Source: Mesorhizobium australicum WSM2073 | Lineage (GTDB): Bacteria > Pseudomonadota > Alphaproteobacteria > Rhizobiales > Rhizobiaceae | Assembly: GCF_000230995.2 (NCBI RefSeq) | Contig: NC_019973.1 | Location: 2,866,001 to 2,930,000 of the forward strand | DNA: 64,000 bases | Direction of reading: 5' to 3' | Translations under genes and position numbers: made by a program | Shown: one piece after another, positions 38,023 to 53,459 of the stretch | How positions within the stretch are numbered: the stretch's first letter is position 1 | Layout of the letters: the number at the start of each line of letters is the position of its first letter | The notes under the pieces: model-generated | Told to the model about the DNA's origin: nothing | The model's database searches: none | The model's input: the letters and a program-made list of their open reading frames with translations, nothing else

Positions 38023-38063
38023 ACAGACCGTGGAGCCGAATATATGCCGAGGTCAACATAGCA

Positions 38064-38801: not shown

Positions 38802-38922
38802 GAACTGGTTGGCCACGTTCGAACGCCGCGCCGTTCGGCTGAATGGGAACTACCGCATTTTGCGATGCTTGTTGCAAAGCCAGTGAACATCGTGATTTCT
38901 AAGTGACCACCGGGGGCGGGCC

Positions 38923-39449: not shown

Positions 39450-40553
39450 ATGGCTGACCTCTATCAAGTGAGCCCTCTATCAAGTGAGCAAAGAGTGCCT
39501 GACCACGCCAAATCATCGTCAGCCCTCCATGGCGATCCCCCGGCGGCGGCAGCCACCACCGCATGGGCGGATCGCAAGGAGTTGGCGTCGGCGGCGTTCG
39601 AGCGCACGCGCATGCCCATCGTCATCACCGATGCTCGGCAGGCTGACAATCCCATCGTGCTGGCCAACAGGGCCTTCCTGGATCTGACCGGCTTTACATC
39701 CGATGAAGTCCTGGGTCGAAATTGCCGCTTCCTACAAGGGGAGGGAACATCGCCTACGGCCGTTGCGGAAATTCGAGCGGCGATAGAGCGTCAACGCGAG
39801 GCGAATGTAGAGATACTGAACTTCCGCAAGGACGGTTCGCCGTTCTGGAACCAGCTCCATCTGAGCCCCATCAAGGACGATGAAGGCGGCCTCCTCTACT
39901 ACTTCGCCTCGCAGATCGACGTAACCAAACATCGTATGATCCAGAGCCTGGAGGCGTCGGAGCACCGCCTCCTCATGGAGGTCGATCATCGCGCAAAGAA
40001 CGTTCTAGCGGTTGTCGATGGTATCGTTCGGCTGAGCAAGGCAGACAGTGCACCGCTCTATGCAGCGGCCGTTCAACGCCGGGTCCAGGCTTTGGCGGTC
40101 GCGCACGCCCTATTGGCCGAGCGCGGCTGGCGCGATGTGCCGCTGGACGAAATCGTCTCCAGGCAGGTCGCCCATTTCGCGTCTGGCAGGACAGCAATGA
40201 CTGGTCCTGAAGTTCTGATCCCAGCGGTGGTCGTTCAACCTCTGGCTCTCGTCGCCCATGAATTGATCGTCAACGCCGCCACCCATGGAGCTCTCGCCCA
40301 GGATACGGGGCGGCTGCAGGTCAGCTGGCAGGCGGCCGGCCATCATGGCGGCTTTTACCTGCGGTGGGAAGAAAGCGGCAGACGTAAAGCTGGATCTCCG
40401 CCAGGGGAGCCCGGCTTCGGAACGACCATGGTCAATGCAATTGTCCAGAAGCAGCTTCAGGGTGAGATCCTGCGGGATTGGACATCGGACGGTTTGAAAA
40501 TCAACATAAGCATCCCGGGCACGGCTGCCCTTTCGACAGCCAAGGGTGCCTGA
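39450..40553 (+). CDS. LOV-domain blue-light HWE histidine kinase
   Basis: 367-residue soluble photoreceptor kinase. The LOV domain (about 45-160) has the flavin-binding signature with photoactive Cys92 in GRNCRFLQGEGTSP, then NFRKDGSPFWNQLHLSPI. The HWE kinase core follows directly: phospho-acceptor His180 in EVDHRAKNVLAVVDG, the ATP-binding VAHELIVNAATHGAL, WEESGRR and PGFGTTMV. This layout matches the alphaproteobacterial LOV-HK group (Brucella, Rhizobium) that links blue light to stress, adhesion or exopolysaccharide responses. The ATG at 39450 has GGAAG upstream. No adjacent response regulator. All residues needed for photochemistry and phosphorylation are present. Confidence 0.92.
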   Translation: MADLYQVSPLSSEQRVPDHAKSSSALHGDPPAAAATTAWADRKELASAAFERTRMPIVITDARQADNPIVLANRAFLDLTGFTSDEVLGRNCRFLQGEGTSPTAVAEIRAAIERQREANVEILNFRKDGSPFWNQLHLSPIKDDEGGLLYYFASQIDVTKHRMIQSLEASEHRLLMEVDHRAKNVLAVVDGIVRLSKADSAPLYAAAVQRRVQALAVAHALLAERGWRDVPLDEIVSRQVAHFASGRTAMTGPEVLIPAVVVQPLALVAHELIVNAATHGALAQDTGRLQVSWQAAGHHGGFYLRWEESGRRKAGSPPGEPGFGTTMVNAIVQKQLQGEILRDWTSDGLKINISIPGTAALSTAKGA

Positions 40554-40643
40554 GACGCTCGTTGATCTCAGCCCATTTTCCCATAGCGACATGGCAGGCC
40601 GGGCCCCGCTAGACGAACGTTTATCAACAAGTCTGGCCGTGAA

Positions 40644-41765
40644 CTATTTCATCAAGCCGGCAGCGCGAAGGGCGCTTTCGATATGCTGACCAGGCAAAGC
40701 CGTTGGACCGCTGCGTGGTTCGAAGGGCGCGTGCGCGACCACCAAAGGGGAGTGTCCAACCGACGTTGCCGGTAAACGCGCATCTGGGGAGGGGCCCGCA
40801 GAGCCCGCATCTTCAAGTCCCCAGAATCGGGAGATGAGCGAGGTGGACGATATGCCAGTGTCGATCATAAAGGATCCAGCCTGACTCAATCCGTCCGCGG
40901 AGTCCACGGGTGTCCCGTGCGCCATGCCCGAGATCAGGTACGACTCGATGACTTCCTCATTTGCGGCGTTCTTCCAGACATCGCGGCGGTAGCCCTGATG
41001 CACCTGTGTCTCGCATTGCCCTCTACTTTGCCCGAACAATGTGAGCCACTGCCCGACGAGCTGATCGGAGTTGATCGGACTGACTGTTGTGTCGGCGCTT
41101 CCATGCCACACGGAGAGTTTCGGCCATGGTCCGCAGTGACCGGAAGCTTGCTGGACGGTCGTCGCCAATCGCCTTGCGGTGGGGGCGCCTTGACCTCGCA
41201 TGCGGTCGAAAGCCTCCGCCAGGTTGTTGGCGCTGCCATAGGGTAGACCGGCTACGATGGCCCCGGCCGCAAAGACTTCAGGGTAAGTCGCCAGCATAGC
41301 GGCGGCCATTGCCCCGCCGGCGGAGAGTCCGGTGATAAAAATCCTGGTGCGGTCGATGTCGTGAGCGGTGACCACGGCCTCTATCATTTGGCGGATCGAA
41401 AGCGCCTCACCGGAGCCCCGTCGGGTGTCGGCCGGGACAAACCAGTTGAAACAAAGATTGGCATTGTTGCTGCGCTGCTGTTCTGGAAAGAGGACGGCAA
41501 AGCCCATGCGATCTGCCGTCCTCGACCAGCCGGCGCCGCGGTCATAGGATGCAGCCGACTGTGTACAGCCATGCAGGACAATCACCAGAGGGGCCTTCGC
41601 CGCAAGGTCCTTGGGGCGGTATGTCCAGGCCCGCAACTTTCCGGGGTTTGACCCGAACACCTGGAGTTCGGAAATGCGCTCGTTTTCGTCAGGACCATTC
41701 AAGACGCCATCCATCTGTTTTCGCCGAGCTGCCAAGCGTGCAATGGTATCGGCGAGACTTCTCAT
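40644..41765 (-). CDS. PHB depolymerase-family esterase (esterase type 1)
   Basis: 373-residue alpha/beta hydrolase of the extracellular PHB depolymerase/feruloyl esterase group. The oxyanion region VIVLHGCTQSAASYDRGAGW is followed by the nucleophile Ser148 in TGLSAGGAMAAA, and a late His in ISGMAHGTPVD. There is no N-terminal signal peptide, so it probably acts in the cytoplasm, perhaps on storage-polymer oligomers or other short esters. The tail from about 320 is Pro/Ala-rich. AGGAT precedes the ATG at 41765, which overlaps the stop of a small upstream frame. Confidence 0.87.
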   Translation of the reverse strand: MRSLADTIARLAARRKQMDGVLNGPDENERISELQVFGSNPGKLRAWTYRPKDLAAKAPLVIVLHGCTQSAASYDRGAGWSRTADRMGFAVLFPEQQRSNNANLCFNWFVPADTRRGSGEALSIRQMIEAVVTAHDIDRTRIFITGLSAGGAMAAAMLATYPEVFAAGAIVAGLPYGSANNLAEAFDRMRGQGAPTARRLATTVQQASGHCGPWPKLSVWHGSADTTVSPINSDQLVGQWLTLFGQSRGQCETQVHQGYRRDVWKNAANEEVIESYLISGMAHGTPVDSADGLSQAGSFMIDTGISSTSLISRFWGLEDAGSAGPSPDARLPATSVGHSPLVVAHAPFEPRSGPTALPGQHIESALRAAGLMK

Positions 41766-41953
41766 GTCGGTATCCTTTGGCGGGCGGGTCCAACAAGCGG
41801 AACGCCGTGTTTCCAGGTTGGTTGCTGCAGTGCAGCATAATTGCTTGCAACCACGATCCGCATGGGGTGGTGGGGGGCCTCTGCCTCCGCGAGATAAAAG
41901 CCCCGCGCCTTTCTCAAACCGTGCTGCGTCAGGCCTTCCACAAGTCCGGACAA
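41762..41953 (-). CDS. Possible small protein coupled to the esterase gene
   Basis: 63 codons from a TTG with GAGG at good distance, ending in an ATGA overlap with the esterase start. The sequence (GLRKARGFYLAEAEAPHHPM, then IVVASNYAALQQPTWKHGVP) is protein-like, but I recognise no family. It could be the tail of a degraded larger gene. Confidence 0.35.
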   Translation of the reverse strand: MSGLVEGLTQHGLRKARGFYLAEAEAPHHPMRIVVASNYAALQQPTWKHGVPLVGPARQRIPT

Positions 41954-42133
41954 CTTTGCCTCAACGGGCCATCATCCGGGCTAGACATTGCGCCGAGGCC
42001 GCCGTCCGACGATCGCCAAAACGGCTTTGCCGCGCCGGCAATGATTCCGGCTTCGGTCGAAGCAAGTCGAAACGGGTTGACACGGGGCATGCCGTCTCGC
42101 CGTGGACGACGGCCAGAAGTGCCACGCGGGAGC

Positions 42134-42158
42134 GGAACATCAGAGCTTGCTAACGGTT
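42134..42158 (+). promoter_or_regulatory. EcfG-type (general stress) promoter
   Basis: GGAAC (42134-42138), 16 bp, GGTT (42155-42158). The -10 box is 34 bp upstream of the GTG start of the micro-gene at 42192. Confidence 0.5.
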
Positions 42159-42191
42159 CTACTTGGTGGATTTCCAATTGAGAGGACGATC

Positions 42192-42317
42192 GTGTCAGCC
42201 TTTGAATTCGTCTATTTTTCTGGTCTCACGGGGAATGATCTCCTGGGCGGTGTCGTCTCGTTGTTGGCGTGCTGTGTTCTCTACAACGTTATCGCGGAGG
42301 ATCGCCCGCACCGGTGA
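42192..42317 (+). CDS. Membrane micro-protein, likely EcfG-controlled
   Basis: 41 residues from a GTG start with AGAGGA five bases upstream. The sequence has a single hydrophobic segment (GNDLLGGVVSLLACCVLYNV) and a short polar tail (IAEDRPHR). Support comes from a well-placed ribosome site plus an EcfG-type promoter just upstream. No homologue known to me. Confidence 0.5.
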   Translation: MSAFEFVYFSGLTGNDLLGGVVSLLACCVLYNVIAEDRPHR

Positions 42318-43167
42318 GCCCGGACCGCAACAGGTGGATCCTAGATCGGCCGCTCTCCACATTCGAGGTCGCATGCGGATGATTTCTATTTCCCATCGTG
42401 GGACCCACTCCGTCAGCTCTCGTCGGCCGATGCCAGCACTTGCGGACTACCGCAGCCACCCGCCCGCAGTTTCTCTCCGCATTGAGGACCCCCCCCGCTG
42501 CAGCCCGTGAGGAAGACTTACGAGGGACGCGTTCTGAGCAAACCTGCACGCCTGTCTGCCTTGTGAGCACGACATCTCCGGCCATGATCGTGACCAACCG
42601 GCTGACACAAACAAGACCGTGGCATTCCGCCAATCAAGCCCGCTGGCGGCCTGCGGAACTTTCCTGCGCGGAGCGAATTGAGCCACGGCGGCCGATTCCC
42701 TATCAGAATCCGCCGCTGACCAAAGACCCAATCTTGGTCGGCCCGCGACTCCTCAGGAAGGCGCGGGCCAATACTTTGGCACTTTGGCAGGATTCGGGTG
42801 CGCGGCCTCGGGGTGATTTGAGTACCATGTGAGACAGCGGCTCGCGGAAATCAAAGCTGGTCTTGCCCTTCGCAGAGACCCGCGAGCGAAGGGTAGGACT
42901 TCGCCAGGGCAGGGCAGTTTGTGCGTTGCCTCAGGGCTGCCGAGCAGGCGCGGAGCCCGGAGATCTGCCGTGCTCTCGCGAAAACAGAACCGTCATGAGA
43001 TCAAGATTGTGTAGGACGAGGTGCGCTTGCAGGAACTTTTCGCACCCATTTCTGAACTACAAGACCGATATGCTCATTCTGGATGATGAACTAGCCGGCG
43101 GCGGCCGCAGGGCCGTCGGCGTCACAGGACAGGATGACGGTCACACGACCGAGCGCAGGCGCATGGA
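42318..43167. other. Gene-free stretch of 850 bp
   Basis: No credible coding region, RNA or repeat. Open frames are short, overlap on several strands and lack ribosome sites. It may be decayed sequence like the pseudogenes nearby. Confidence 0.4.
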
Positions 43168-43443
43168 TTAGGCGTGGCTGTCCGGGGAGGATCGCGACGA
43201 TGATGAGTCCCGCTCCTCCTCGACGTTGAAAACGATGCTTGCTCGAAAGGCAAGATCGCCGCCCTCGTCTCGTACGACGATCGCCAATTTGTGGTGATCA
43301 CCGTCTGGAAGGGCGTCTTTGGTCATCTCCGCCAAAGCTTTGATCGCCTCATATTTGACCGCGGCAAGGTCTTGGCATTCCGTTCCCTCATCGTCAGGGA
43401 ATATCGTTCCGTTGTCGTCGAAGTCGAAATAGTAGAGCGCCAT
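43168..43443 (-). CDS. DUF6894-type small protein
   Basis: 91 residues from the ATG at 43443. The typical opening is MALYYFDFDDNGTIFPDDEG, followed by CQDLAAVKYEAIKALAEM and the second half LAIVVRDEGGDLAFRASIVF. Soluble, function unknown, common in rhizobial stress regions. The tail is Ser/Asp/Arg-rich. A GGAAC-N16-AGTT promoter (43453-43477) would start transcription only a few bases before this ATG, implying a nearly leaderless message; the longer frame to 43575 is therefore less likely. Confidence 0.72.
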   Translation of the reverse strand: MALYYFDFDDNGTIFPDDEGTECQDLAAVKYEAIKALAEMTKDALPDGDHHKLAIVVRDEGGDLAFRASIVFNVEEERDSSSSRSSPDSHA

Positions 43444-43452
43444 CGCCGACCG

Positions 43453-43477
43453 AACTGGAGGGCTCGGCGTTTGTTCC
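43453..43477 (-). promoter_or_regulatory. Possible EcfG-type promoter of the DUF6894 gene
   Basis: On the minus strand, GGAAC (43473-43477), 16 bp, AGTT (43453-43456). The -10 box is only 10 bp from the ATG, so the transcript would have almost no leader. Confidence 0.35.
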
Positions 43478-44073
43478 TCGCTCTGGCCCTGATGATCCAT
43501 TACAGGAGACAGCGTCAACCACTCTCGCACGCGTGAAAAGCGCAACACCAGCCCTCGGCGAGGCTCCGCGCCCATTACGCTTCAGTGCCTTCATTTGTGC
43601 GACTATGAGAAGCGGGTGCGCGGCCAAGTTCAGCCCAGTGCAATGCCTGTGCGGACAATCCCGAGCTTCAGTGTCGCGAAAGATGGTATCGTGCCAAATT
43701 GCCTGTAGCGGCGTCGAACTTCTCCGGCCAATCAGCTGGACCCCGTGTCTGGTTCGGTTTGGCCGACCGTGCGGATGCTCCGACTAACCGATCGAACATT
43801 CGACGTCCGCTGAAATATCCCCGAGATGAGGCGATCGATGGCCGATTGACTGCGGGGCTGGCAAGCAGAGTTTCGTCGGCTCGGCGCCCGGAAGGAGAGT
43901 TGCCTGAAGACGCCGAGCCTAGCCAGCGAGATTAGCGGGGGGCCGCGTCCTCTCGCCGGCTAAGAGGTTATGCGCTCTCTTAGGCACTCGTGAAGCATTC
44001 GAATGCACTAAGAGGCCGGGACATTTCTGCCTGAAATCCGACTTGCTTAGCCATTTCATCTCGGGAGGAATAA
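43478..44073. other. Gene-free stretch of about 600 bp
   Basis: I see no convincing gene or RNA here on either strand. Confidence 0.4.
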
Positions 44074-44262
44074 ACTGGGCTGTTCAATCGTCTGCTCGAG
44101 AAGGACCTGACCCTATAGTCTCGGCACTGCATAGCCCAGCTGGCCCGGACGGGCTTGGATTAAGGCCGTTACGACGTTCACCTGCAGTCGCTTCACCAAA
44201 GGGTAGGCTTCTCTCACCAGCGAGAAGCCTGCGATGTTGCCAGGGGGGCAGCGATTTCTGAT
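44074..44262 (+). pseudogene. Decayed copy of the small zinc-ribbon gene
   Basis: DNA-level match to the intact gene at 51260-51463. The upstream block with TTCATCTCGGGAGGAATAAA corresponds to TTCATCTTGGGAGAAGATGAA, the coding LFNRLLEKDLT to LSNQLLEEDLT, and TTACGACGTTCACCTGCA to the intact GTAACGACGTTCACCTGCA. The start codon is lost (ATG to CTG) and TAG and TAA stops interrupt the frame. The first CxxC pair is destroyed. Confidence 0.75.
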
Positions 44263-44348
44263 CTCTCCTGGAACATTGTGGGGGTCGAAGCACTTCGGCA
44301 GTTGCACTGTTCTCCATTCTCAGTGCGTATTCCCATGGTGTTTGTCTC

Positions 44349-44380
44349 GCCCGCTGCTGAAAGGTGGCGGGCCTTTTTTA
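44349..44380 (+). terminator. Rho-independent terminator
   Basis: GCCCGC (44349-44354) and GCGGGC (44367-44372) form a 6-bp GC stem with a 12-base loop followed by C and six T. It lies about 90 bp after the zinc-ribbon pseudogene and may be its former terminator. Confidence 0.65.
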
Positions 44381-44786
44381 TTTTCGGCCGAGAAATGCTT
44401 GAGCGTCTTTCTGAGGACTCCTGGTCAACCCTCTGGCCACACCAGACCGTCATAGTAATGTTGCAGGGCGGATGATGCCGCCCGTCGCGCGACATGAGTT
44501 TCCATCCTGATCGCGTTGCGCTCGATGTCGATAACATCCCGCAGCCTGAGTGCGGCCGCTGGACCCGAGCTTCGACACGTGCGTAACTGCCAACCCTGCG
44601 GTGCATGAGATTGGTGCCGCAGGCGACCTCCTGAACATGCGCAGCCGCGGCCCAGTTCACGGCAATGCGGCCACCGAGCTCGTTTCTGGAACATGTGTCG
44701 GGACATCCCGGAGCCTGACGCTTATCCTGCTGCGGCGCCTTCCCCATCTGCCGCGGGCCAAGCCGCTGCCTTTTATGCAACATGTG

Positions 44787-44811
44787 GGAACCTGATATTC
44801 GTCGGCTGGTT
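44787..44811 (+). promoter_or_regulatory. Possible EcfG-type promoter upstream of the regulator pseudogene
   Basis: GGAAC (44787-44791), 16 bp, GGTT (44808-44811). It lies about 180 bp before the first ATG of the broken regulator, farther than the other sites. Confidence 0.35.
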
Positions 44812-44988
44812 CGAGAGGCGGCAGCTCCCGTGCTGCTGGTCAGGTCCCCAATACTTGGCCGGGCCCGCTTCCCTCGCCAGTGAGGCGGGCCCACTGCATC
44901 GGCAAAGGCGTCCGGCGCCATCGTTTGGAAGATGACCATAACTGGTTGGGCGCCCGTGGGCGCGGGTGACGATTTTTAAGGGACCGAT

Positions 44989-45475
44989 ATGCGTCGCAAG
45001 ATCGACAAGCTAAGGCACGAACGGACTGACCGGGAATCTCGCGTCGTCATCGAGGCGGAGCATAAAGCTAGCGAAGCGAAGACGACAAACGGGTCGGTTC
45101 TGACGTTGAAGAGGAGCCAATGGTACTGCTCGATCTAGAAGAAGGTCTCGAAGAAGCTGGCTTCCCGTCTGCTGGTATGAGTAGCGCCACGTAAGATCTG
45201 TCTTCGATACCGACCCGGACTTGATCAGCGCTCTTATCTCGGACATCCGGCTGGGTGATGGACAATCCGGTTGGGAAGTTGCCCGGCATGTGCAGCAATC
45301 CAATGCGATGATCCCGGTTGTCTATATAAGCGGGGACAGTGTTCCTGGCATTGGGGCGCCGAGGGTGTCCTAGAAAGTATCATCACGAAGCCGTTTTGCT
45401 TTGCCTCAGGCCATCACCGCCCTTTCCATGCTGCTCAACCAGCAACATCCGCACCAAACGAGCCAGGCGCGTAGG
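44989..45475 (+). pseudogene. Frameshifted CheY-like response regulator
   Basis: A single receiver domain can be pieced together from three frames: TTNGSVL, then VEEEPMVLLDLEEGLEEAGF, then FDTDPDLISALISDIRLGDG with the phospho-acceptor Asp in SDIRLG, GWEVARHVQQSN and PVVYISGDS, then WHWGAEGVLESIITKPF with the conserved Lys-Pro-Phe. At least three indels separate these pieces, so no full-length product is possible. It is close kin to the broken regulator at 51717-52090. Such stand-alone receivers usually work with HWE kinases, two of which are in the window. Confidence 0.8.
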
Positions 45476-45577
45476 CGCTCTCGATTGCCTCACGCGCGTA
45501 CGCGCCAAAAGGTCGAGGCGGTGCCTTCTGCTAATCTGGCAATGCCTTACCAGTTGTTTGGTGAGTAGCCCGGGGCC

Positions 45578-45658
45578 TCACCGCGCAATACGGCCCACAG
45601 CCCACCCGAGCGAGATAGCCACGACGAACCCCAGAAGTACGGCCGTAAAGAACCACAT
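45578..45658 (-). CDS. 26-residue membrane peptide
   Basis: ATG at 45658 with AAGGA eight bases upstream, encoding MWFFTAVLLGFVVAISLGWA plus a short basic tail (VGRIAR). An EcfG-like GCAAC-N16-CGTT lies 32 bp upstream. Tiny single-span peptides like this are often stress-induced, but a chance frame cannot be excluded. Confidence 0.4.
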   Translation of the reverse strand: MWFFTAVLLGFVVAISLGWAVGRIAR

Positions 45659-45689
45659 GAGGCGTTCCTTCGCTCGTTGTACGAGCATC

Positions 45690-45714
45690 AACGCGGCAAG
45701 CGATTTATAGTTGC
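45690..45714 (-). promoter_or_regulatory. EcfG-like promoter (GCAAC variant)
   Basis: On the minus strand GCAAC (45710-45714), 16 bp, CGTT (45690-45693), 32 bp before the 26-residue membrane peptide. One mismatch in the -35 box. Confidence 0.35.
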
Positions 45715-45785
45715 AGGTCCGCGGGGCAGCGGTCCGCTCGGGCGCCCGCCGACGCCGTGGAGCCGCATATCTGGTGGTCGGTCTC

Positions 45786-45974
45786 TCAGTGGGTCCTTGT
45801 TGGACGTAGTTGCCACCCCTCGATGGACCGTTCCAGGTCGGTGGATCTCGATTGCGTGGTGGTAGGCGTCGCCCAGGAAAGCAGGGCAAGGCTGACCGAG
45901 AAGGAGATCAGCAAGGCGAAGGCGGTCGCGAGCAAGACATGGTCCCTGTTGAAAGCGGGTACAACCACCGCCAA
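45786..45974 (-). CDS. Possible single-span membrane micro-protein
   Basis: 62 codons from a TTG. One hydrophobic segment (VLLATAFALLISFSVSLALL) and a polar tail (STDLERSIEGWQLRPTRTH). The start and ribosome site are weak, so this is only a possibility. Confidence 0.3.
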   Translation of the reverse strand: MAVVVPAFNRDHVLLATAFALLISFSVSLALLSWATPTTTQSRSTDLERSIEGWQLRPTRTH

Positions 45975-46172
45975 TCCGGTTCGTTCATTCGCAGTCTGCT
46001 TGCTCGTGAGTCATGGTTACCGCGCCGTTAAGAACGGCCGCGCGCCTTTGCAACTTGGAGGCAGCCTAGGGCTGGGCGGCGAGCCCCTTCAGCAGCTTTC
46101 TAAACGCCGCCGGATTGCCAATAACCGCTCTGCCTCACTTGGAACCTTTTTTCGCCGCGCGGATTGCTGTGC

Positions 46173-46379
46173 ATGACAAAAACCCCAGAAGTTGCTCCGC
46201 CCATCCTAGCCGAGACCAGCCCGGACCGTCCTGTCAATTGCGAGGTCGCTCTGGAATCCGCCTTCGCGGCCCTTGTCGCCACCTCCATCGGCCAGGGATG
46301 GACCCCGGAAGAGACGGCCGAAACGCTGCACAAGCTGGCCATGGAGCATCTCGAACAGCTCAAGGCCATAACGGCCTAA
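46173..46379 (+). CDS. Small hypothetical protein
   Basis: 68 residues from the ATG at 46173. A Pro-rich start (TKTPEVAPPILAETSPDRP) precedes a predicted helical part (ALESAFAALVATSIGQGWTP and EETAETLHKLAMEHLEQLKA) that resembles small regulatory helices. No membrane span. The ribosome site is weak. Composition is protein-like and it is followed closely by another small gene on the same strand. Confidence 0.5.
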   Translation: MTKTPEVAPPILAETSPDRPVNCEVALESAFAALVATSIGQGWTPEETAETLHKLAMEHLEQLKAITA

Positions 46380-46403
46380 TCGCTCCGGCGTGGCTCCGGA
46401 ATT

Positions 46404-46670
46404 TTGACACGCCACATGTCGAATTATTTGCATTCAAATGAATTTCACGACGCTATAGATGCTGCCTCAACGTTCTGGGAGGAGAGCATGGCTCCGCATG
46501 AGCAGCATGCCGTTGAAATTATCCGCGAGAAGAAATGGACCGTGCGTGTAACCGCCTATGGCAGCGCCATCACGTTCACTTTCGAATCTGAAGAGTACGC
46601 TCGCTCATACGCGGACGGGCAGGCGTTCCGCCTCGGAGTCGACGTTGTCGAATTCAAGAAATGCGCCTAG
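46404..46670 (+). CDS. Small hypothetical protein
   Basis: Up to 88 residues (an internal Met at position 5 is an alternative start). Helical first half (NEFHDAIDAASTFWEESMAP) and a beta-rich second half (WTVRVTAYGSAITFTFESEE, then YADGQAFRLGVDVVEF). Soluble. It follows the previous small gene by 24 bp and may share its transcript. No family recognised. Confidence 0.55.
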   Translation: MTRHMSNYLHSNEFHDAIDAASTFWEESMAPHEQHAVEIIREKKWTVRVTAYGSAITFTFESEEYARSYADGQAFRLGVDVVEFKKCA

Positions 46671-47146
46671 CTGCAGATCAGCGAACTTTTTCCCGCAGTT
46701 CCTGTTGGCCCTGAGGGGGAACTTCGGACGCAACGGCTTCAGATCGCCACCCTGCTCAGGCCCAGCCTGCGCAGGCAGTCGGCCGGCGCCAGGATGCGGG
46801 CAGGCGGTCGTAACGGTCGCCATCTGTCGTTGGGCTCACAGCTCGCGATCGCCAGCGCGCGCACGAGTTCGCCGGTTGCGTTATCGGAATACTTCCTCTC
46901 AAACTAGACTTCGGGAAACTGTCATGGACTTCATGGCCCTGGGAGGGTGTTTCCTTTTATACCGGCTCCAAAATTCTGCCGTTTGAAGTCGCCGTCGACG
47001 GTACCAGAGAACCCGGGCTTTATCGCGGGGAAGTATGCCATTGCTGCCGATGGGCTCACGGCGAGCATTGACGGCTAGTTGGCCAGCCCCTTCCCGAGTT
47101 CAGCCCCGCGCCGGACTCAGCCCGCCGAGGCGAAGCGGCATGCTGT
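46671..47146. other. Gene-free stretch
   Basis: About 480 bp with no credible gene. An EcfG-like promoter for the DUF3606 gene begins at its right edge. Confidence 0.35.
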
Positions 47147-47171
47147 GCAACAAAGCGAAGCGAACCACGTT
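47147..47171 (+). promoter_or_regulatory. EcfG-like promoter (GCAAC variant) of the DUF3606 gene
   Basis: GCAAC (47147-47151), 16 bp, CGTT (47168-47171), 26 bp before the ATG at 47198. One mismatch from GGAAC, but spacing and position match the other sites. Confidence 0.4.
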
Positions 47172-47197
47172 GCCCCCTCAGGAGTGGAGGAACGAAG

Positions 47198-47386
47198 ATG
47201 GCAGACGACAAGAGCAAGAGAGACTCTCGGGACCGGAACCGCGTCTCGGTCGAAGAAGACTACGAGGTGCGATATCTCGCTGAGAAAGCCGCGATTACGG
47301 CCCAGCAGGTCCGCGACCTCATTAAGCAAAACGGTAATAACCGCGGCACGCTGGAACGCGGAGCGAAGAACTCAAAGGCTCGCTGA
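47198..47386 (+). CDS. DUF3606 family small protein
   Basis: 62 residues typical of DUF3606: charged start MADDKSKRDSRDRNRVSVEE, then DYEVRYLAEKAAITAQQVRD and LIKQNGNNRGTLER. GGAGGAACGAAG precedes the ATG. These proteins are abundant in rhizobia, often in several copies and often stress-induced; their function is unknown. An EcfG-like promoter lies just upstream. The next gene starts eight bases after the stop and may be co-transcribed. Confidence 0.82.
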   Translation: MADDKSKRDSRDRNRVSVEEDYEVRYLAEKAAITAQQVRDLIKQNGNNRGTLERGAKNSKAR

Positions 47387-47393
47387 GGCCAAG

Positions 47394-47810
47394 ATGGCAA
47401 GGTACCAGGTGGAAGAGATCTACGGTGACACCGTCGTGTCGTCTGGCGTCGTCGTGGAGGACGATCCGATGAAAGCAGCCGAACAGGCTGCCGGGCAAAG
47501 AGTGTCCCTAAGCCCGCCGACCGGGGGCGTCGATGAGTTTCTTCGCGGCTTGGACGAGCCGGACGCAATAAGTTTGTACGGCAGAAAACCAGACCTTCAC
47601 ACAGGCGCTCAACGACGCACCGCGCGACGTTCTACACCGACTTTGCCCAAGATTGACCAGCGGCGACGGGCTGCGCTTGAAAGTTGTTCAAACAACTCTC
47701 CAGCGCCTCGATCCGGTAACGCATCAAAAGGGCGCAAGACTTGGGCCGGCGGCACAAAAAGCTTGACGCACCTTCGATGCGGGCGAGGTCTGCCGGCGCG
47801 CTCGACCTAG
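47394..47810 (+). CDS. Small hypothetical protein with altered C-terminus
   Basis: The ATG at 47394 opens MARYQVEEIYGDTVVSSGVV and EDDPMKAAEQAAGQRV, which looks like a small rhizobial family of 65-75 residues. After about residue 60 (DEPDAISLYGRKPD) the composition turns Arg/Ser/Thr-rich and unlike a folded domain. The frame runs to 139 codons, so the natural end was probably lost by a frameshift or small rearrangement. The N-terminal part is the credible piece. Confidence 0.4.
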   Translation: MARYQVEEIYGDTVVSSGVVVEDDPMKAAEQAAGQRVSLSPPTGGVDEFLRGLDEPDAISLYGRKPDLHTGAQRRTARRSTPTLPKIDQRRRAALESCSNNSPAPRSGNASKGRKTWAGGTKSLTHLRCGRGLPARST

Positions 47811-47984
47811 CCACCAGCGGGGCAGGATGCCGCCGCCGAGTTCCTGCTTGGTCGTGTACCCGGACTTAACTATGCGGGCCTCTTCCCAGATGCTCTTCGA
47901 CAACTGCATGACACGCCTGCTGAATGGGTAAGCGCAGTCAATCCGGCTCCCGCGTTAGACGCATGGAGCCGGACCAAAGAGCGA

Positions 47985-48281
47985 TCAGTCCTCCTGCTGG
48001 ATAACGACGGGCCGATTGTGGTGGTGACGGTGCATCGAGCGAGTGATGACGACGGTATCACGGCGGTGATGCCGATGGCGCCACGAGCGATGGCCGTTGT
48101 CATAGAATGCTTCCTGGCCGTGATGTCGGTGGTGAAGACGGCCACCTTCGTCATTGTATATGACGGTGGCACCATGGTGATGTCGGTGATGTGTTGAAAC
48201 CACCACGTCAGCCTCGGCAGCAGAAGCGACCACCGGAGCCGCAAGCGAAAGAGCCAAAGCGCTCAGAATCAAGACCTTCAT
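47985..48281 (-). CDS. Exported histidine-rich protein
   Basis: 98 residues from the ATG at 48281. Signal peptide MKVLILSALALSLAAPVVAS with a likely cut after ASA. The mature part has about 20 His, many in clusters (THHRHHHGA, RLHHRHHGQ, SWRHRHHRRD, MHRHHHNRP), suggesting metal binding in the periplasm or outside the cell. An EcfG promoter with perfect boxes lies 44 bp upstream. It may buffer metals during general stress; that is inference. Confidence 0.68.
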   Translation of the reverse strand: MKVLILSALALSLAAPVVASAAEADVVVSTHHRHHHGATVIYNDEGGRLHHRHHGQEAFYDNGHRSWRHRHHRRDTVVITRSMHRHHHNRPVVIQQED

Positions 48282-48324
48282 TTTGCTATTCCTGTATGCC
48301 TGAAACACGTCCCTTCACGAAGCC

Positions 48325-48349
48325 AACGAGGCAGGGGTGTCTTTGTTCC
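48325..48349 (-). promoter_or_regulatory. EcfG-type promoter of the histidine-rich gene
   Basis: On the minus strand GGAAC (48345-48349), exactly 16 bp, CGTT (48325-48328), 44 bp before the ATG. Both boxes match the consensus. Confidence 0.7.
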
Positions 48350-48528
48350 GGTCTGTCCCCCGGGTTCGTAGGGGCCATCCCTCCAAAGCTGACTCGCGTC
48401 GATGCGCACCGTTTGATCGGTTAGGCCACGTGTGGACGAAGCCGATGCGGGGGACTGGAACAGGTGTGAAGGTGATCCCGGTTTGCGGCTTGGGTTCACC
48501 GGTCTGGCGATGCGGCGGGCGTTTCTTG

Positions 48529-48744
48529 TCAGCCCGCGGCAGGCGAAGCGGGCCCGGGTGCGTTGCCGCCTTGGTTCTGCTCGGGGGCAACCTGCGGTGT
48601 CGGTTGCCGCGAAGCGTTTGACAAGGGTGCGAATATAAAGAAGGCGAGAAGGCCTAGAAAAACCAGGGCGATCACGACCACGGCCCAGCTCGCGATCCGA
48701 GCTGTACCTCGCCGTTCCTGATTGCGTGAGAGATCGTTGGTCAT
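48529..48744 (-). CDS. Single-span membrane protein
   Basis: 71 residues from the ATG at 48744, with AAAGGA at good distance; the frame is open to 48780 but without a ribosome site there. Polar N-terminus (MTNDLSRNQERRGTARIA), one span (SWAVVVIALVFLGLLAFFIF) and a Pro/Gln-rich tail (APLSNASRQPTPQVAPEQNQ). Small inner-membrane protein, probably stress-induced given the promoter upstream. Function unknown. Confidence 0.6.
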   Translation of the reverse strand: MTNDLSRNQERRGTARIASWAVVVIALVFLGLLAFFIFAPLSNASRQPTPQVAPEQNQGGNAPGPASPAAG

Positions 48745-48789
48745 TGAGTGTCCTTTCGGGATCGAATGGTCGGATCCCATCGGCGCCCG

Positions 48790-48814
48790 AACTTCAATTG
48801 AGCGCTGATGTTCC
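48790..48814 (-). promoter_or_regulatory. EcfG-type promoter of the single-span membrane protein gene
   Basis: On the minus strand GGAAC (48810-48814), 16 bp, AGTT (48790-48793), 46 bp before the ATG at 48744. Confidence 0.5.
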
Positions 48815-49065
48815 TTTCATTCGGAAAGACCAATGCTAATGTCAGGCTGATCCCGAAGGATCACTTGCCAAGGCAGAGAGCAGCGCGCCGCGCCGAGCAA
48901 GAGGTCGACGTGAAGGCTTCCCGCGGAAGCGGCTGCATGGAACAATCCATCATGCCCAGATTTCTCGGAGCCGCCGGCCACAGCGTGGAGAATGCTCCAA
49001 GCCATTGGATGGCCGCAAAAGTGACGGCGCTGCTGCGCCGCGAACTCCCGCCAGCCACATCCGCC
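48815..49065. other. Gene-free stretch
   Basis: No convincing gene between the EcfG promoter and the end of the binding-protein-like gene. Confidence 0.35.
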
Positions 49066-50163
49066 TCACCTGGCATCGTCAACACCCCTGATTTGCGCCG
49101 GGTTGCCCGGTGTTCTTTCGGCGATTTGAATCGGCACACCAGTCCACTGCCAAACGGTCGTAGCTGGTGTGCGAAAGAACTGGATGTGGCCACGGGTGCC
49201 GGCAACCTCTATCCGCGGCCATGACTCTGCGATGCTGTTCCGGTCAGTGCCGTAGGACCGTATTGCCTGAGCAAGGACGACGATCGTGTCGTATCCTTCC
49301 AGAGCAACGAAGGAGGGCGCCTCGCCCAACTTCTCCCGCAGGGCCCTTTCGACGCGTGAGCCTAGCGGGTCGAGGTGTCCGGGTCGATAGCGCAGGAAGG
49401 GGATCGCAGCGCTATCTTCGCCTAGCAATGTGGCCCATTCAGCGAATTCTGGTTGCCCAGCTGGAGCGCCGATCTTGATCGTGGACAGGCGACCGTCATT
49501 GCGAACTGACTTGACGATTGAGATTGCTGGCTCTGGCTGGCCTACAAGAAGAAGAAGCACTGTCGCGCGATGGTGGATGAGTTGGTCGCACAACATTGAC
49601 GGGTCCAGCGAGCTCATGCTGATGTCCGATAACGTCGCGCCGTTGGCTTCAAGGTGATCACGCAGAATGTGAACGCCAGATGCCCAGTAGACGCTCTGCT
49701 GCGATGCAACTGCGATCCGATCGTGACCAGCGCGCGACAGGAAGTCGGCATATGTTTGCCAGCCGCGAGACTGCGGCGGGGCAAGACGTGCGACCCACTT
49801 GGTTGCTTGATCCGTTAGCCTGTCGAGTACCGCCGACGAACAGAGAAAAGGGAGTCCGAGCTCGTCGGCCCTGACAGCCGCCGCGCGAGCAACGACACTG
49901 TGATACTCTCCCGCTATCGCTACCACGCCCAAACGGGCCAGTTCATCCACTGCCGCGACGGCCTTCTGTGGATCGGCTGCAGTGTCTCGCACGAGCAGCT
50001 CAAGCGCCTTGCCGCCGACGCCACCAGCGCTATTGATTTCGCTGACAGCTAGCTGAAGGCCCGCAAGCAAATGTCTGCCTGCCTCAACCCAGCCGGGGCG
50101 AGTCAAAGGGACGAGTGCTCCGATTGTGGTCGTTTCTTCGGAGCCCGGATCAGTCGATGCCAT
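49066..50163 (-). CDS. Branched-chain amino acid binding protein-like, no signal peptide (AmiC-like)
   Basis: 365 residues with the type I periplasmic-binding fold of Leu/Ile/Val-binding proteins: IGALVPLTRPGWVEAGRHLL, then QLAVSEINSAGGVGGKALEL, VRDTAADPQKAVAAVDELA, and YDTIVVLAQAI near the end. A good ribosome site (GGAG, seven bases) fixes the start at MASTDPGSEE. There is no signal peptide, so the protein should stay in the cytoplasm. Known cytoplasmic members such as AmiC act as ligand sensors controlling a regulator. No transporter or regulator gene is adjacent. It could also be an exported protein that lost its signal. Confidence 0.75.
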   Translation of the reverse strand: MASTDPGSEETTTIGALVPLTRPGWVEAGRHLLAGLQLAVSEINSAGGVGGKALELLVRDTAADPQKAVAAVDELARLGVVAIAGEYHSVVARAAAVRADELGLPFLCSSAVLDRLTDQATKWVARLAPPQSRGWQTYADFLSRAGHDRIAVASQQSVYWASGVHILRDHLEANGATLSDISMSSLDPSMLCDQLIHHRATVLLLLVGQPEPAISIVKSVRNDGRLSTIKIGAPAGQPEFAEWATLLGEDSAAIPFLRYRPGHLDPLGSRVERALREKLGEAPSFVALEGYDTIVVLAQAIRSYGTDRNSIAESWPRIEVAGTRGHIQFFRTPATTVWQWTGVPIQIAERTPGNPAQIRGVDDAR

Positions 50164-50631
50164 TCAGTATCTCCTGGTTACGCAATCCTCACCGCGTGCC
50201 CAGCTACAGCGCACATGCCTCGACCGATAGAGACAGTCGGACCTAACTCCAACGATCTGTACCATCGCCACTGCCGACACAGTTCCGATGCGGCAGGTCT
50301 TAGTGGACTGGCTACCGGCGTCGACAATCCCGCCGCCACCGACACGAGGCAAAGTTCGATGGCCACTGCTCGCAGATCCTAAACGCTTGTACTGAGTGAC
50401 GCTTAGCGGGTTGTGAGGCAGAGGGTGTGCCAAATTCACCGTCTGAGCAGTAAATGCCCGAAAAACACTTGGTCGTTGACGCCTGTTTGGGCATCTGGTC
50501 CGGGCTGATTTGCGGCCAATTCCAGGCAGCTAGTGGAGACTAGGTGTTGAGACCCCCGGAACGGTGAGTGTGTTGTGTTTGCTTGGGGCGCGGCGGTCGA
50601 TTGGCCTTCATCCTGCCAAAGGAGACGGTCC
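50164..50631. other. Gene-free stretch upstream of the CsbD promoter
   Basis: About 470 bp without a credible gene on either strand. It should contain the promoter of the binding-protein-like gene at its left end. Confidence 0.35.
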
Positions 50632-50656
50632 GGAACCTTGCTACCCCGATTACGTT
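50632..50656 (+). promoter_or_regulatory. EcfG-type promoter of the CsbD gene
   Basis: GGAAC (50632-50636), exactly 16 bp, CGTT (50653-50656), 32 bp before the ATG at 50688. Both boxes match the consensus. Confidence 0.72.
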
Positions 50657-50687
50657 TTGACTTCATATCAGACGAAGGAGGCCACAC

Positions 50688-50891
50688 ATGGACTGGAACC
50701 GCGTCGAAGGGAACTGGAAGCAGGTCAAAGGCAAGGTCAAGGAACAGTGGGGCAAACTCACCGACGACGATCTCGACCGCATCGCCGGCAAGCGCGATCA
50801 GCTCGAAGGCAAGATTCAGGAACGTTACGGCCTGGAGAAGGATCGCGTCCGCCGTGACGTAGACGATTGGTACGGCATGCAGGGCTGGTAA
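50688..50891 (+). CDS. CsbD family stress protein
   Basis: 67 residues, the normal CsbD length: MDWNRVEGNWKQVKGKVKEQ, WGKLTDDDLDRIAGKRDQLE and GKIQERYGLEKDRVRRDVDD. Small, helical, charged soluble protein, one of the standard general-stress products in alphaproteobacteria; the molecular role is unknown. AAGGAGG precedes the ATG, and a consensus EcfG promoter lies directly upstream. A weak hairpin (AGCCCGCG and CGCGGGCT, about 50925-50962) with a later T-run may end the transcript. Confidence 0.92.
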   Translation: MDWNRVEGNWKQVKGKVKEQWGKLTDDDLDRIAGKRDQLEGKIQERYGLEKDRVRRDVDDWYGMQGW

Positions 50892-51197
50892 CCATTCGCC
50901 AAAGAAGCCCCACAGCCCGCGGCTCTGGCGGACGATCTGCGCCGATGGGATAGCGCGGGCTCTTCGCCTTTAGCATTTTTTACTCGTCCACGAGGCCGGG
51001 CTTCAGCCATTCGGCCTTGTCACTCACCGGGTCACCAGCCTTGCCTTGCACGCAATTGTGGAAGCGATTGCGCTTGTCTGACGAACGCACCGCAGGCTGA
51101 GCGGCTGCTCAAGAGCTTATGCGAAATTCCGCGCAGGCCGCTTTCAGCGGCTCGATGACCATCAGTCATACTGCCGCTCGGCAGCGCCCCCTGTGTC

Positions 51198-51238
51198 CTT
51201 CCAGCACACGCACTCTGGCATTCGTCTTGCAAAGCCGC
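51198..51238 (+). repeat. Short dispersed repeat, copy 1
   Basis: About 40 bp beginning CTTCCAGCACACGCACTCTG, just upstream of the zinc-ribbon gene. It matches 52508-52546 at most positions with a few substitutions and single-base gaps. Confidence 0.6.
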
Positions 51239-51259
51239 TTCATCTTGGGAGAAGATGAA

Positions 51260-51463
51260 ATGGCTCTATCCAATCAGCTGCTTGAGGAAGACCTGACCTT
51301 TCAGTGTCCGAGCTGCAAAACCCCACTGGTCAGGAAAGGCTCCTGGGTCAAGTCCGTAACGACGTTCACCTGCAAGCGATGCGGCGAAAGGGTACGGCTC
51401 TCGTACAGCGAGAAGCTTGAAATTTTTCGGTTGGGTGCCGCTGCGCGCGACACTGGAAGCTAA
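51260..51463 (+). CDS. Small zinc-ribbon protein
   Basis: 67 residues from the ATG at 51260, with GGGAGAAG upstream. Two Cys pairs (FQCPSCKTPL and FTCKRCGERVRL) about 20 residues apart form a zinc ribbon; the rest is short and basic. Such small ribbons can bind nucleic acid or protein, but no role is known. A decayed copy lies at 44074-44262. No EcfG box is visible in front; a short dispersed repeat is there instead. Confidence 0.65.
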   Translation: MALSNQLLEEDLTFQCPSCKTPLVRKGSWVKSVTTFTCKRCGERVRLSYSEKLEIFRLGAAARDTGS

Positions 51464-51716
51464 CGTCGCGTTGTCTTCGTTGCGCATGTGTTTAAACGAC
51501 GCCGGCCGATGGCCACGATGCTAATTTCAATAAGCTGGCAAAGGTCAGTTAGGCTCGGCGGTTTGCCCCTGCGAGAGAAGCCACCGAGCTGCCTGTCAGA
51601 CAGGCCTCCCACGCGGGCTGCAACATCCGGCCCTGCGGAAGTTCCGGAAACGGCGGACCGGTTGTGTGCTCGCAGGTGCTCATCGCCCAGGTGCCGGGTG
51701 CGGTGGAATGAGCCGT

Positions 51717-52090
51717 TCAACGGGAGTTAATCAGCGTCGATAATGCCGTGACAATCTGTGCCATGAAAAACGGTTTCCAGATGATGATGCTATTCGACGC
51801 CCCTTCCGCGCCCCAGTGTGAGGCAGTGTCGCCGGTCGCGTAAACGACTGGCAAGTTTGGATTTGCCTGCCGAATATGTCGAGCGACGTCCCAACCTCGC
51901 TTTCCCGGCCCAGACGGATGTCCGCGACGAGAACCCGGATTCTTGAGGGGTCGACATCAAACGCCTCAATCGCGCTCGCGGCGTTGCAGGCAGCAACGAC
52001 GTTGAAGCCGGCCTTGGTCAGCGCGACATCGAGGCCAAGCAATATGACAGGCTCGTCTTCAACCACCAGGACTTTGCCGTCATGCATCAT
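51717..52090 (-). pseudogene. Frameshifted CheY-like response regulator (single-base deletion)
   Basis: The N-terminal half is intact: VLVVEDEPVILLGLDVALTK, AIEAFDVDPSRIRVLVADIR with the phospho-acceptor Asp in ADIRLG. One base is missing at about 51893-51898, after RLGRES. In the shifted frame the rest is perfect: GWDVARHIRQANPNLPVVYA, TGDTASHWGAEGASNS, IWKPFFMAQIVTALSTLINS and a TGA at 51717-51719. As written the product ends in an unrelated tail (stop at 51731). One recent lesion suggests fresh loss or a sequence error. Probably coupled to the small gene just upstream. Confidence 0.78.
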
Positions 52091-52101
52091 GGACCATCCC
52101 T

Positions 52102-52407
52102 TCATGTCGGCTTGTCCGCCAGCGGCGCCTTTCTGATCGGCGCCTTGTACGCGCTCACCAGCCTGACGACGGCGGCATCGATTGTGACTGGTACGCCCAG
52201 ATTCACCGTCACGCGGTTTTCGTCGATGTGGGTGACGTTGCCAATCAACTCGATATGCTGCCCCTTCTGTACCTTCGTTGTATGGTCGATCACCGAGTGG
52301 GGTTGCCCATAGGAAGGGATGGAAACGCTCACCCGGTCCTCAGTGACCCGCTTGCGCACGGTTGCCGTGATCACGACCTCGTCGCCGATATTGATGCCCT
52401 TTGCCAT
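52102..52407 (-). CDS. Small conserved beta-rich hypothetical protein
   Basis: 101 residues: MAKGINIGDEVVITATVRKR, VTEDRVSVSIPSYGQPHSVI and VQKGQHIELIGNVTHIDENR. Alternating beta pattern suggests an OB-like or SH3-like small barrel. No signal peptide. Its stop is close to the start of the broken response regulator on the same strand, suggesting one transcript. Function unknown; similar small proteins are common in rhizobia. Confidence 0.65.
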   Translation of the reverse strand: MAKGINIGDEVVITATVRKRVTEDRVSVSIPSYGQPHSVIDHTTKVQKGQHIELIGNVTHIDENRVTVNLGVPVTIDAAVVRLVSAYKAPIRKAPLADKPT

Positions 52408-52507
52408 AGCCGTGAGTCTGGGGCGAATAACGGCTTCGTCAAGCAGATGCTAATATGAATTGTCTGGCGAGGCCGAACCGCCCGCTTGCCGGCCGTCCAG
52501 TATGTCG

Positions 52508-52546
52508 CTCCAGCACACGCGCTCTGGCATCGTCTTGCACGGACGC
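52508..52546 (+). repeat. Short dispersed repeat, copy 2
   Basis: CTCCAGCACACGCGCTCTGG and following bases match 51198-51238. No gene like the zinc ribbon follows this copy. Confidence 0.55.
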
Positions 52547-52877
52547 ATTCGCCGGCTGCGCAACAACACCGCTCGCCAAACTGATGATCATCGGGCGCAA
52601 AACGCACCATTTGGGAGGCGGCGGCCGACGACTGGCATGAGTCAGGCTACCTAGCCAGCCAGAGGAACAACTGTGTCCAGCCCGCGAACGACCCGCGCGA
52701 GGCGCGCGTCTCTCAAGTCCTTCTCCAAGCAACAACAAGGCGGCTACCCTAGCTTGGAGGGCCGAGGGATTCGTAATGAAGCCGACGCTACCTGGCCGCG
52801 CCTGGAGGGGGGCTCAGCAACCGACCCAGTGGAGAAGGATCGACCCTGCCGACCAAGTGCACGAGACATTTGTCACA
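52547..52877. other. Gene-free stretch
   Basis: About 330 bp with no credible gene between repeat copy 2 and the end of the DUF6101 gene. Confidence 0.35.
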
Positions 52878-53459
52878 TCACTTCCTATCCAACAATCGAC
52901 CGATATGCTCTAGCGACGTCAGTTTGTTCATCAGGCCAGCCTTTGAAAGCCTAGGTGCATGGTCGAGACGCGGTCCGTGTTGGGGTCGCCTCGATGAGAG
53001 CGAGTTGATCTTGGCACCGAGCGTTTCCTCAAGCGTGCGGGCAACGCCGTCGGCCCCCAGCAGAAGCATAGGCAGACGGTAGGCCACGGCCCAGGCACGC
53101 CAGTCGGTGGCAACAAGCTCGAGCTCGTCGGACACCAGTAGCGGCACCGTCAGCATCGGATCATTGTGCAGAAGCTTGAGCTCCGCTGTGAATCTTCCAT
53201 TTGGATCCTCCATTGCGCAGGCGGCCACTCCGCGGAAAACCTTGGCGGGGAGGGCAATGATTGCCGGCATGCTGCTCACATTTTGCGTGCGGCGGACCAC
53301 CACACCACGCTGGTTGAGCGTAAAGGTCACGTCGCCATAGTTGTCACTTGTGGTGTAGCTCACCTGCTCCGGCAGGCGCGACGGGTCGAGACGCCTGTTG
53401 CGGCCGGTCCAAGAACTCTTCTCCGGTTCAGTATGAGTCCGCTCACCGTCGTCCATCAT
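52878..53459 (-). CDS. DUF6101 family protein
   Basis: About 193 residues from the ATG at 53459, with AGGTGAAA upstream; the frame is open to 53675 but that extension is Arg-rich and unlikely. Features of the rhizobial DUF6101 family: GRNRRLDPSRLPEQVSY near the start, the RGVVVRR strand, ALPAKVFRGVAACAMED and LKLLHNDPMLTVPLLVSDE. Soluble, function unknown. It stands alone, separated by some 450 bp from the catabolic cluster. Confidence 0.68.
   Translation of the reverse strand: MMDDGERTHTEPEKSSWTGRNRRLDPSRLPEQVSYTTSDNYGDVTFTLNQRGVVVRRTQNVSSMPAIIALPAKVFRGVAACAMEDPNGRFTAELKLLHNDPMLTVPLLVSDELELVATDWRAWAVAYRLPMLLLGADGVARTLEETLGAKINSLSSRRPQHGPRLDHAPRLSKAGLMNKLTSLEHIGRLLDRK

Follow-up and report, generated by a model that had tools for sequence, protein, structure and literature searches.

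Micro-protein genes and structured RNAs behind EcfG-type boxes: a probable accessory part of the general stress regulon in Mesorhizobium

Why do boxes of the kind read by the general stress sigma factor EcfG crowd in front of a series of very small genes in one short piece of the Mesorhizobium australicum WSM2073 genome, and what do these boxes serve? The piece belongs to a stretch of 64,000 nucleotides (nt), hereafter the window, which covers positions 2866001-2930000 of a 6.2-Mb genome in a single contig; window coordinates (Table 1) count from its first letter. An initial annotation, made from the letters alone, had seen an island of tiny genes here and proposed that it may be an undescribed stress micro-protein set. 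We find that the island is very likely an accessory part of the Mesorhizobium EcfG general stress regulon, composed of micro-proteins and structured RNAs. The conserved micro-genes with their boxes stand as proposed; the idea of a purely micro-protein set does not, because one box serves a structured RNA, and a second RNA and an esterase have variant boxes.

We score the box as GGAAC-N16-NGTT and use the same pattern at other spacings as the control for chance. Seven exact boxes lie within ~8.9 kb of the island, and every box that the initial annotation had named, GCAAC variants included, is present. Its remark on their density is borne out, with 14 matches at N15-17 in the window against 4.5 +/- 2.3 in shuffled sequence and not one of 100 shuffles reaching 14. 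Genome-wide, N16 yields 296 sites, and N13, N14 and N15 together yield 390, i.e. 130 per spacing. The 800 kb that include the window, selected since the genome-wide scan had clustering there, hold 93 N16 boxes as against 13-26 at each of the spacings N12-15 and N17-20 (mean 20.2), which places ~73 of the ~166 genome-wide excess sites in 13 percent of the genome. Because of this excess of N16 over other spacings, we read most N16 boxes in the 800-kb stretch as genuine EcfG-type promoters. The GCAAC-N16 variant keeps an excess by the spacing control (36 vs 21.0, 800 kb), and so do AGAAC, CGAAC and TGAAC, to some of which the three-base periodicity of coding sequence contributes; most other single-letter changes of the box abolish the excess in the 800 kb, where no clear excess is seen for the -10 variants NATT and NCTT either.

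The island is not the sole place of this kind. Comparable clusters, each within 9 kb, lie at 2.946 Mb (7 sites) and at 2.622 Mb (6 sites), and the ecfG locus at 1.509 Mb has 7 boxes in 7.3 kb (1508558-1515815). The comparison with unrelated regions that the initial annotation had called for therefore comes out mixed: other spacings show no excess, and a few other parts of the genome are as dense, so that the island is not unique. Between 2.56 and 2.96 Mb the box-dense stretches mostly have a lower G+C (~0.60 vs ~0.64 for the rest examined), and a further one at 3.04-3.12 Mb is without lowered G+C.

Do the boxes stay with their genes in other genomes? The gene of the 41-amino-acid (aa) membrane protein was found by DNA search in 33 of 146 Mesorhizobium genomes, the sample that we use throughout at the level of the genus. 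Of 34 matches in total, 30 were read, the own locus among them: 28 have an exact N16 box ahead of the gene and the other 2 an N17 box; one of these 30 has a broken frame and one has its box merely 14 nt from the aligned start. In a second set of 27 named loci, which overlaps the first, 25 have the exact box, and their 302 kb hold 71 N16 boxes (25 of them this gene's own), compared with 3-18 for any one of the ten other spacings counted. For csbD, 26 of 28 non-own loci have the exact box, one has GCAAC and one has none (24 of 26 when identical sequences are merged); 25 of these 28 are from within the genus and 3 from other genera. Among five relatives of the His-rich protein, four have an exact box at a distance of 40-47 nt, and the fifth has N15 or N17 spacing. 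The DUF3606 gene has its GCAAC-N16-cGTT at 47147, and eight relatives aligned over at least 80 percent have GGAAC-N16 (5), GCAAC-N16 (2) or none (1); five partial relatives have GCAAC-N16 (2) or no box (3). The 26-aa peptide, found in 3 of 146 genomes by DNA search, keeps GCAAC in all three (own included in both counts), followed at N16 by NGTT in two and CATT in one. Of three relatives of the 71-aa gene, a single one aligned over most of its length, and it alone has the box; for the esterase none was found in the first 700 bases of one relative's locus, where the gene start is not established. The recurrence of the box in relatives upholds the claim of correctly oriented EcfG-type promoters before conserved micro-genes. 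In the island, the -10 is separated from the start codon by 33 nt (box at 42134), 9 (43453), 43 (48325), 45 (48790) and 31 (50632).

The 9.7 kb of the island matched 42 of 61 genomes (own included) with a longest non-own match below 1 kb, so the island is not conserved en bloc, and the relatives of its individual small genes lie scattered. All 27 named 41-aa loci are from Mesorhizobium, as are all 14 plasmid records in which the type I RNA described below has a match. As a separate observation, three stretches of 20 kb in Mesorhizobium sp. B2-1-8 contain 12, 9 and 11 boxes at N16, as compared with 0-3 for any other single spacing, and we read them as EcfG islands on the chromosome and a plasmid of another species.

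All the small open reading frames (ORFs) tested, eight genes and the 41-aa gene, differ from their relatives, which were picked by protein similarity, mostly at third codon positions. Counts at the three positions are 244/134/557 for the 41-aa gene (28 relatives), 12/1/20 for the 26-aa peptide (2 relatives) and 92/62/153 for the 68-aa gene. By this measure the small ORFs evolve as coding sequence. That several of the micro-proteins match no family, as the initial annotation had found, is supported for those of 41, 26, 68, 84 and 98 aa, none of which reaches the cut-off of a Pfam or NCBIfam family; the 71-aa protein scores 21.1 bits against PLDc_N (PF13396), under the cut-off of 23.3. The 41-aa protein has a family of 41 members in the protein collection, always from Mesorhizobium where the name shows an organism, and visible names are hypothetical, conserved hypothetical or uncharacterized protein only. 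Most of these relatives start with ATG and have 43 aa.

The box at 44787 raises a different question. As the promoter of a small ORF it was rejected, the sole frame offered by the scan being a 26-codon frame with a TTG start, and the sequence behind it recurs together with the box in other species. This sequence, which we call the type I RNA, is ~80 nt long, and the window copy (44818-44897) folds as three hairpins with a z-score of -3.65. An exact box precedes 37 of 45 distinct copies, and -35 and -10 keep their N16 spacing even in copies merely 70-80 percent identical to that of the window. A covariance model built from an alignment of 44 copies (one short copy omitted) gave 66 matches (58 distinct rows), in which standard pairs make up 95.3 percent of the pair cells. 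Sixteen of the 22 pairs have changed on both sides, spread over all three helices, and the loops vary freely; the covariation score is 0.252 against 0.142 when shuffled and at most 0.079 with partners slid by 1-3 columns, figures that lean somewhat because the alignment was fitted to the structure and has a few weak or antisense matches inside. From the unfitted alignment RNAalifold recovers the first two helices only, with 4 of 14 pairs changed on both sides. The first loop could be excised from 39 of 44 copies, and 27 of these loops contain CCC.

Of the 146 Mesorhizobium genomes, 43 contain the type I RNA; a single genome can have as many as 9 matches, and copies occur on plasmids and on the chromosome. 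The genome taken to be that of M. japonicum MAFF 303099 has three, at 206837-206926 of plasmid pMLb and at 6665731-6665820 and 7017562-7017651 of the chromosome. A family-level sample of 199 genomes, searched with stricter filters, has a match in our own genome only: none of the ~196 genomes of other genera has one, and neither do the two other Mesorhizobium included there. The own genome has matches at 2910812 (the window copy) and 5663316, and weak ones at 2798354 (with an exact box) and 2908679. No Rfam covariance model matches at E<=1 over positions 36000-53000 of the window, and no gene is listed beneath the RNA in the 14 matching plasmid records, whose gene table carries no RNA genes. 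Transfer RNAs do not account for the sequences upstream, with one such gene in 45 stretches.

Does type I stand alone? Iterated searches of the gathered loci, counting copies of at least 50 nt, revealed sister types IIa, IIc and III beside many type I copies, and two of the three are present in the island. Its type III copy falls at 42656-42772 in these searches; over 11 copies of this type the -10 is NGTT in 6, NATT in 4 and absent in 1. The island's type IIa copy has no -10 at N16, and among 16 copies of the type we find GGAAC-N16-NCTT in 8, NGTT in 2, NATT in 1, GCAAC in 1 and none in 4. Type IIc has GCAAC-N16-NGTT in 9 of 17 copies and no box in 8. Another type or a second type I copy lies nearby on the same strand in 25 of 45 cases, and an intrinsic terminator lies within 70 nt upstream of 25 of 45 type I copies as compared with 60 of 900 random 160-nt stretches. 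Because of these same-strand neighbours and upstream terminators, we read the loci as short arrays of independent RNA units. It is possible, and we suggest it tentatively, that the families I, IIa, IIc and III, each unit with an EcfG-type promoter of its own, have multiplied in arrays among micro-protein genes, on plasmids and in dispensable parts of the chromosome, and add to the general stress response a second layer specific to the genus. If so, the dose and repertoire of stress RNAs would differ between strains, and the arrays would travel with accessory DNA.

Which factor would read these boxes? The PhyR_sigma2 family (PF22029) has matches at 1509350(-) and 1509994(+), within the cluster of seven boxes described above, and ORFs behind boxes at 1.51 Mb resemble NepR and PhyR and are taken here to be such; on these grounds we assign the phyR-nepR-ecfG locus of the genome to 1.51 Mb. 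A further EcfG-like sigma-factor ORF, an open frame of 224 aa with a PhyR_sigma2 match at 2626515-2626664(-), lies in a box-dense region and adjoins a DUF6894 gene at 2627189. Activated PhyR would draw the anti-sigma factor NepR off EcfG, and EcfG-bound RNA polymerase would then start at GGAAC-N16-NGTT boxes, with GCAAC-N16-CGTT as a weaker variant. The dispersed micro-protein genes would be induced, each from its own promoter and with a leader of ~20-35 nt (the DUF6894 gene with almost none), and stand-alone structured RNAs of ~80-100 nt would be induced likewise. The type I transcript would begin at the first hairpin, with its C-rich loop, and our best guess is that it acts as a GsrN-like regulator by pairing with G-rich mRNA leaders. 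What the sequences show is the boxes with their exact spacing, the conservation of these boxes alongside the genes, the coding character of the small ORFs and, through covariation, the structure of the RNA; that the boxes depend on EcfG, where the transcripts end, how the RNA works and what the peptides do is inferred.

Some observations weigh against the island as a part of the EcfG regulon. The genome has further EcfG-like sigma factors, that at 2.6265 Mb among them, any of which might read the boxes. Eight of 45 type I copies are without the exact box, and just 5 of 45 have an intrinsic terminator within 160 nt downstream. The 68-aa gene (whose relatives have GGAAC-N16-[A/C]TT in 4 of 5 cases and NGTT in none of the 5) and most type IIa RNAs have a -10 (GATT, GCTT, NCTT) without clear genome-level excess, and the 84-aa gene has no N16 box in the island or in 9 relatives.

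What else could account for these findings? Boxes read mainly by the EcfG-like paralog, in answer to another signal, rather than by core EcfG would be compatible with the rest of our explanation. The position of the 224-aa ORF within a dense box region suits this reading, as does the presence of canonical and non-canonical EcfG factors in R. etli, according to the cited part of PMC3892343; we hold it unlikely, as the core phyR-ecfG locus has these boxes too. It is extremely improbable that the boxes stem from chance or composition and that the small ORFs are spurious. Read backwards, the N16 pattern does occur 279 times genome-wide, near the true count of 296, and of the 27 named 41-aa loci 9 have solely the gene's own box and 2 have none. 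The backwards pattern is an unfair control, since it is simply a commoner string and about as frequent at N13-15 (801 over the three spacings). Low counts at every other spacing, the retention of the box in 28 of 30 (41-aa) and 26 of 28 (CsbD) loci and the third-position excess, in relatives found by protein similarity, all speak against chance, and we reject a chance origin of the boxes on the spacing controls.

Two further alternatives concern the RNAs. Type I-III elements could be mobile palindromic repeats like the repetitive extragenic palindromic (REP) elements, carrying a promoter-like string by descent and having no regulatory RNA function. Up to 9 copies per genome, a patchy occurrence (43/146) and a presence on plasmids as well as the chromosome would fit this; double-sided changes in each of the three helices beside freely varying loops, a spacing of N16 kept despite identities of 70-80 percent, and the fact that the elements are not simple palindromes count against it, and we consider it decidedly unlikely. 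Alternatively, the type I RNA could be a riboswitch-like 5' leader of the genes downstream. On plasmid pMLb of strain MAFF 303099 a small coding sequence does follow ~200 nt downstream on the same strand, whereas on a plasmid of Mesorhizobium sp. B2-1-8 both copies read (262535-262653 and 265209-265320) are followed, in a gene table that is incomplete, by a gene on the opposite strand, and in the window a decayed response-regulator stretch comes next, which leaves a leader highly improbable.

How does such an island compare with known systems? In S. meliloti 202 genes go up on overexpression of rpoE2, 150 of them without predicted function, and sigma-E2 motifs precede 23 small RNAs (sRNAs), as given in the cited part of PMC3616915. 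Like the island, then, the EcfG/RpoE2 regulon as described there includes many small or unknown genes and sRNAs; the island differs in that it has several RNA types in short arrays among micro-protein genes. GsrN of Caulobacter, in the part of PMC5869019 drawn on here, is an EcfG-dependent RNA of ~100 nt with a C-rich 5' loop that co-purifies with the mRNA of katG and raises the expression of KatG; its BLASTn matches are reported there in Caulobacteraceae only, and GsrN-like genes typically lie near the ecfG locus, GsrN of C. crescentus itself being an exception. Type I RNA shares with GsrN, so described, the EcfG-type promoter, the similar size and the C-rich loop in its 5' part. Unlike GsrN-like genes it is multi-copy and not near the ecfG locus, its model having no match in the 1.50-1.52 Mb stretch with phyR-nepR-ecfG, and we do not claim membership in the GsrN family. 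The RpoE2-linked sRNA SmelB126/smB9 of S. meliloti, for which the table in the cited part of PMC7143759 prints 4, taken here as copy number, has an exact N16 box and a U-run terminator in the pSymB stretch; the type I model has no match at E<=1 in that stretch, and SmelB126 is not placed in the same family. Three island proteins are members of known families, CsbD (PF05532), DUF3606 (PF12244) and DUF6894 (PF21834), the gene of the last having its box 9 nt before the start codon.

This short distance deserves a closer look. The DUF6894 box (43453-43477(-)) has no Shine-Dalgarno sequence between it and the ATG, and a box 4-10 nt before ATG is found also for two paralogs in the own genome (2655547 and 2951366) and for relatives. 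With a start ~8 nt after GTT, as for SmelB126, the DUF6894 mRNA would begin at or near the ATG and is probably leaderless. In the 30 DUF6894 loci read (of 60 matches) an NGTT box stands 4-10 nt before ATG in 5, farther away in 2 and nowhere in 23; in 13 of the latter, GGAAC-N16-NATT lies 33-85 nt ahead of the domain start (33-39 nt in 8 loci, 53-58 nt in 4). GGAAC-N16-NATT may be a real box variant for this family, though the 800 kb give it no clear excess. A box 7-9 nt before ATG is shared by two other small-gene families (MTKLSDLGPP..., ...AAMAQPGYW...), at 2799195 and 2945852 and in relatives. A general leaderless preference of EcfG boxes was rejected: an ATG follows at 4-10 nt for 22 of 112 N16 boxes against 31 of 272 at other spacings in the own genome (p 0.05), and other Mesorhizobium loci show no excess (39/296 for N16, 44/246 for other spacings). 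On these counts, we propose leaderless starts for particular families only (DUF6894, MTKLSDLGPP, AAMAQPGYW).

Table 1. Boxes, RNAs and genes of the island and its flanks (window coordinates)
Feature	Position	Strand	Evidence or remark
Exact GGAAC-N16-NGTT boxes	42134(+), 43453(-), 48325(-), 48790(-), 50632(+)		pattern scan
Further exact N16 boxes in window	41799(+), 44787(+), 36413(-)		pattern scan
GCAAC-N16-cGTT boxes	45690(-), 47147(+)		pattern scan
Esterase, poly-3-hydroxybutyrate (PHB) depolymerase type, 373 aa	40644..41765	-	Pfam PF10503 E 2e-35
Esterase box GCAAC-N16-cGTT	41801-41825	-	35 nt before ATG at 41765
41-aa gene box GGAAC-N16-GGTT	42134..42158	+	conserved in relatives
41-aa membrane micro-protein, GTG start	42192..42317	+	43 aa with ATG in most relatives
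Type III RNA variant box GGAAC-N16-AATT	42655..42679	+	pattern scan
Type III RNA (sister of type I), three hairpins	42679..42780	+	type I model match 31.8 bits; fold z -4.64
DUF6894 protein, 91 aa	43168..43443	-	Pfam PF21834 1e-20; 74.1 bits, cut-off 24.1
RNA-like element type IIa	44265..44380	+	GGAACAT near start, intrinsic terminator at end
Type I RNA box GGAAC-N16-GGTT	44787..44811	+	exact pattern
Type I RNA, three hairpins, C-rich first loop	44812..44902	+	model match 89 bits; predicted start ~44820
26-aa membrane peptide	45578..45658	-	GCAAC-N16-cGTT box 45690-45714(-)
68-aa protein, no known family	46173..46379	+	GGAAC-N16-GATT at 46141, 7 nt before ATG
84-aa protein, no known family	46416..46670	+	codon-position differences 56/34/152 in 5 relatives
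DUF3606 protein, 62 aa	47198..47386	+	Pfam PF12244 6.4e-12; 45.6 bits, cut-off 24.3
His-rich exported protein, 98 aa	47985..48281	-	box 48325-48349(-)
71-aa membrane protein	48529..48744	-	box 48790-48814(-)
csbD box, EcfG-type	50632..50656	+	conserved in relatives
CsbD-like protein, 67 aa	50688..50891	+	Pfam PF05532 1.6e-23; 82.7 bits, cut-off 40

The box at 41799(+) is probably incidental, because a GCAAC-N16-cGTT box occupies the same place on the opposite strand, 35 nt before the esterase gene. Between the listed features lie two decayed-looking copies: a broken response-regulator stretch (45097-45426), which resembles 2625128-2625462 elsewhere in this genome, and a stretch (44036-44231) that resembles the zinc-ribbon gene region at 51220-51419. 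Positions 46753-47145 match 2800968-2801381 and 2844370-2844514 at 68-75 percent identity and are possibly another repeated element.

What is new here is not the kind of system, since the EcfG regulon and its sRNAs are known; it is the families that look new. This appears to hold for the RNA families of Mesorhizobium and for their multiplicity, as well as for the micro-protein families in between; our searches of open-access papers found no description of any of these. EcfG regulons are rich in genes without assigned function, and here such a set is delimited by promoters conserved in many species, to which a structured RNA family that Rfam lacks is added. Type I copies are present in the well-studied M. 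japonicum MAFF 303099, so that the effect of a strain-variable dose of stress RNA in soil and nodule would be directly testable.

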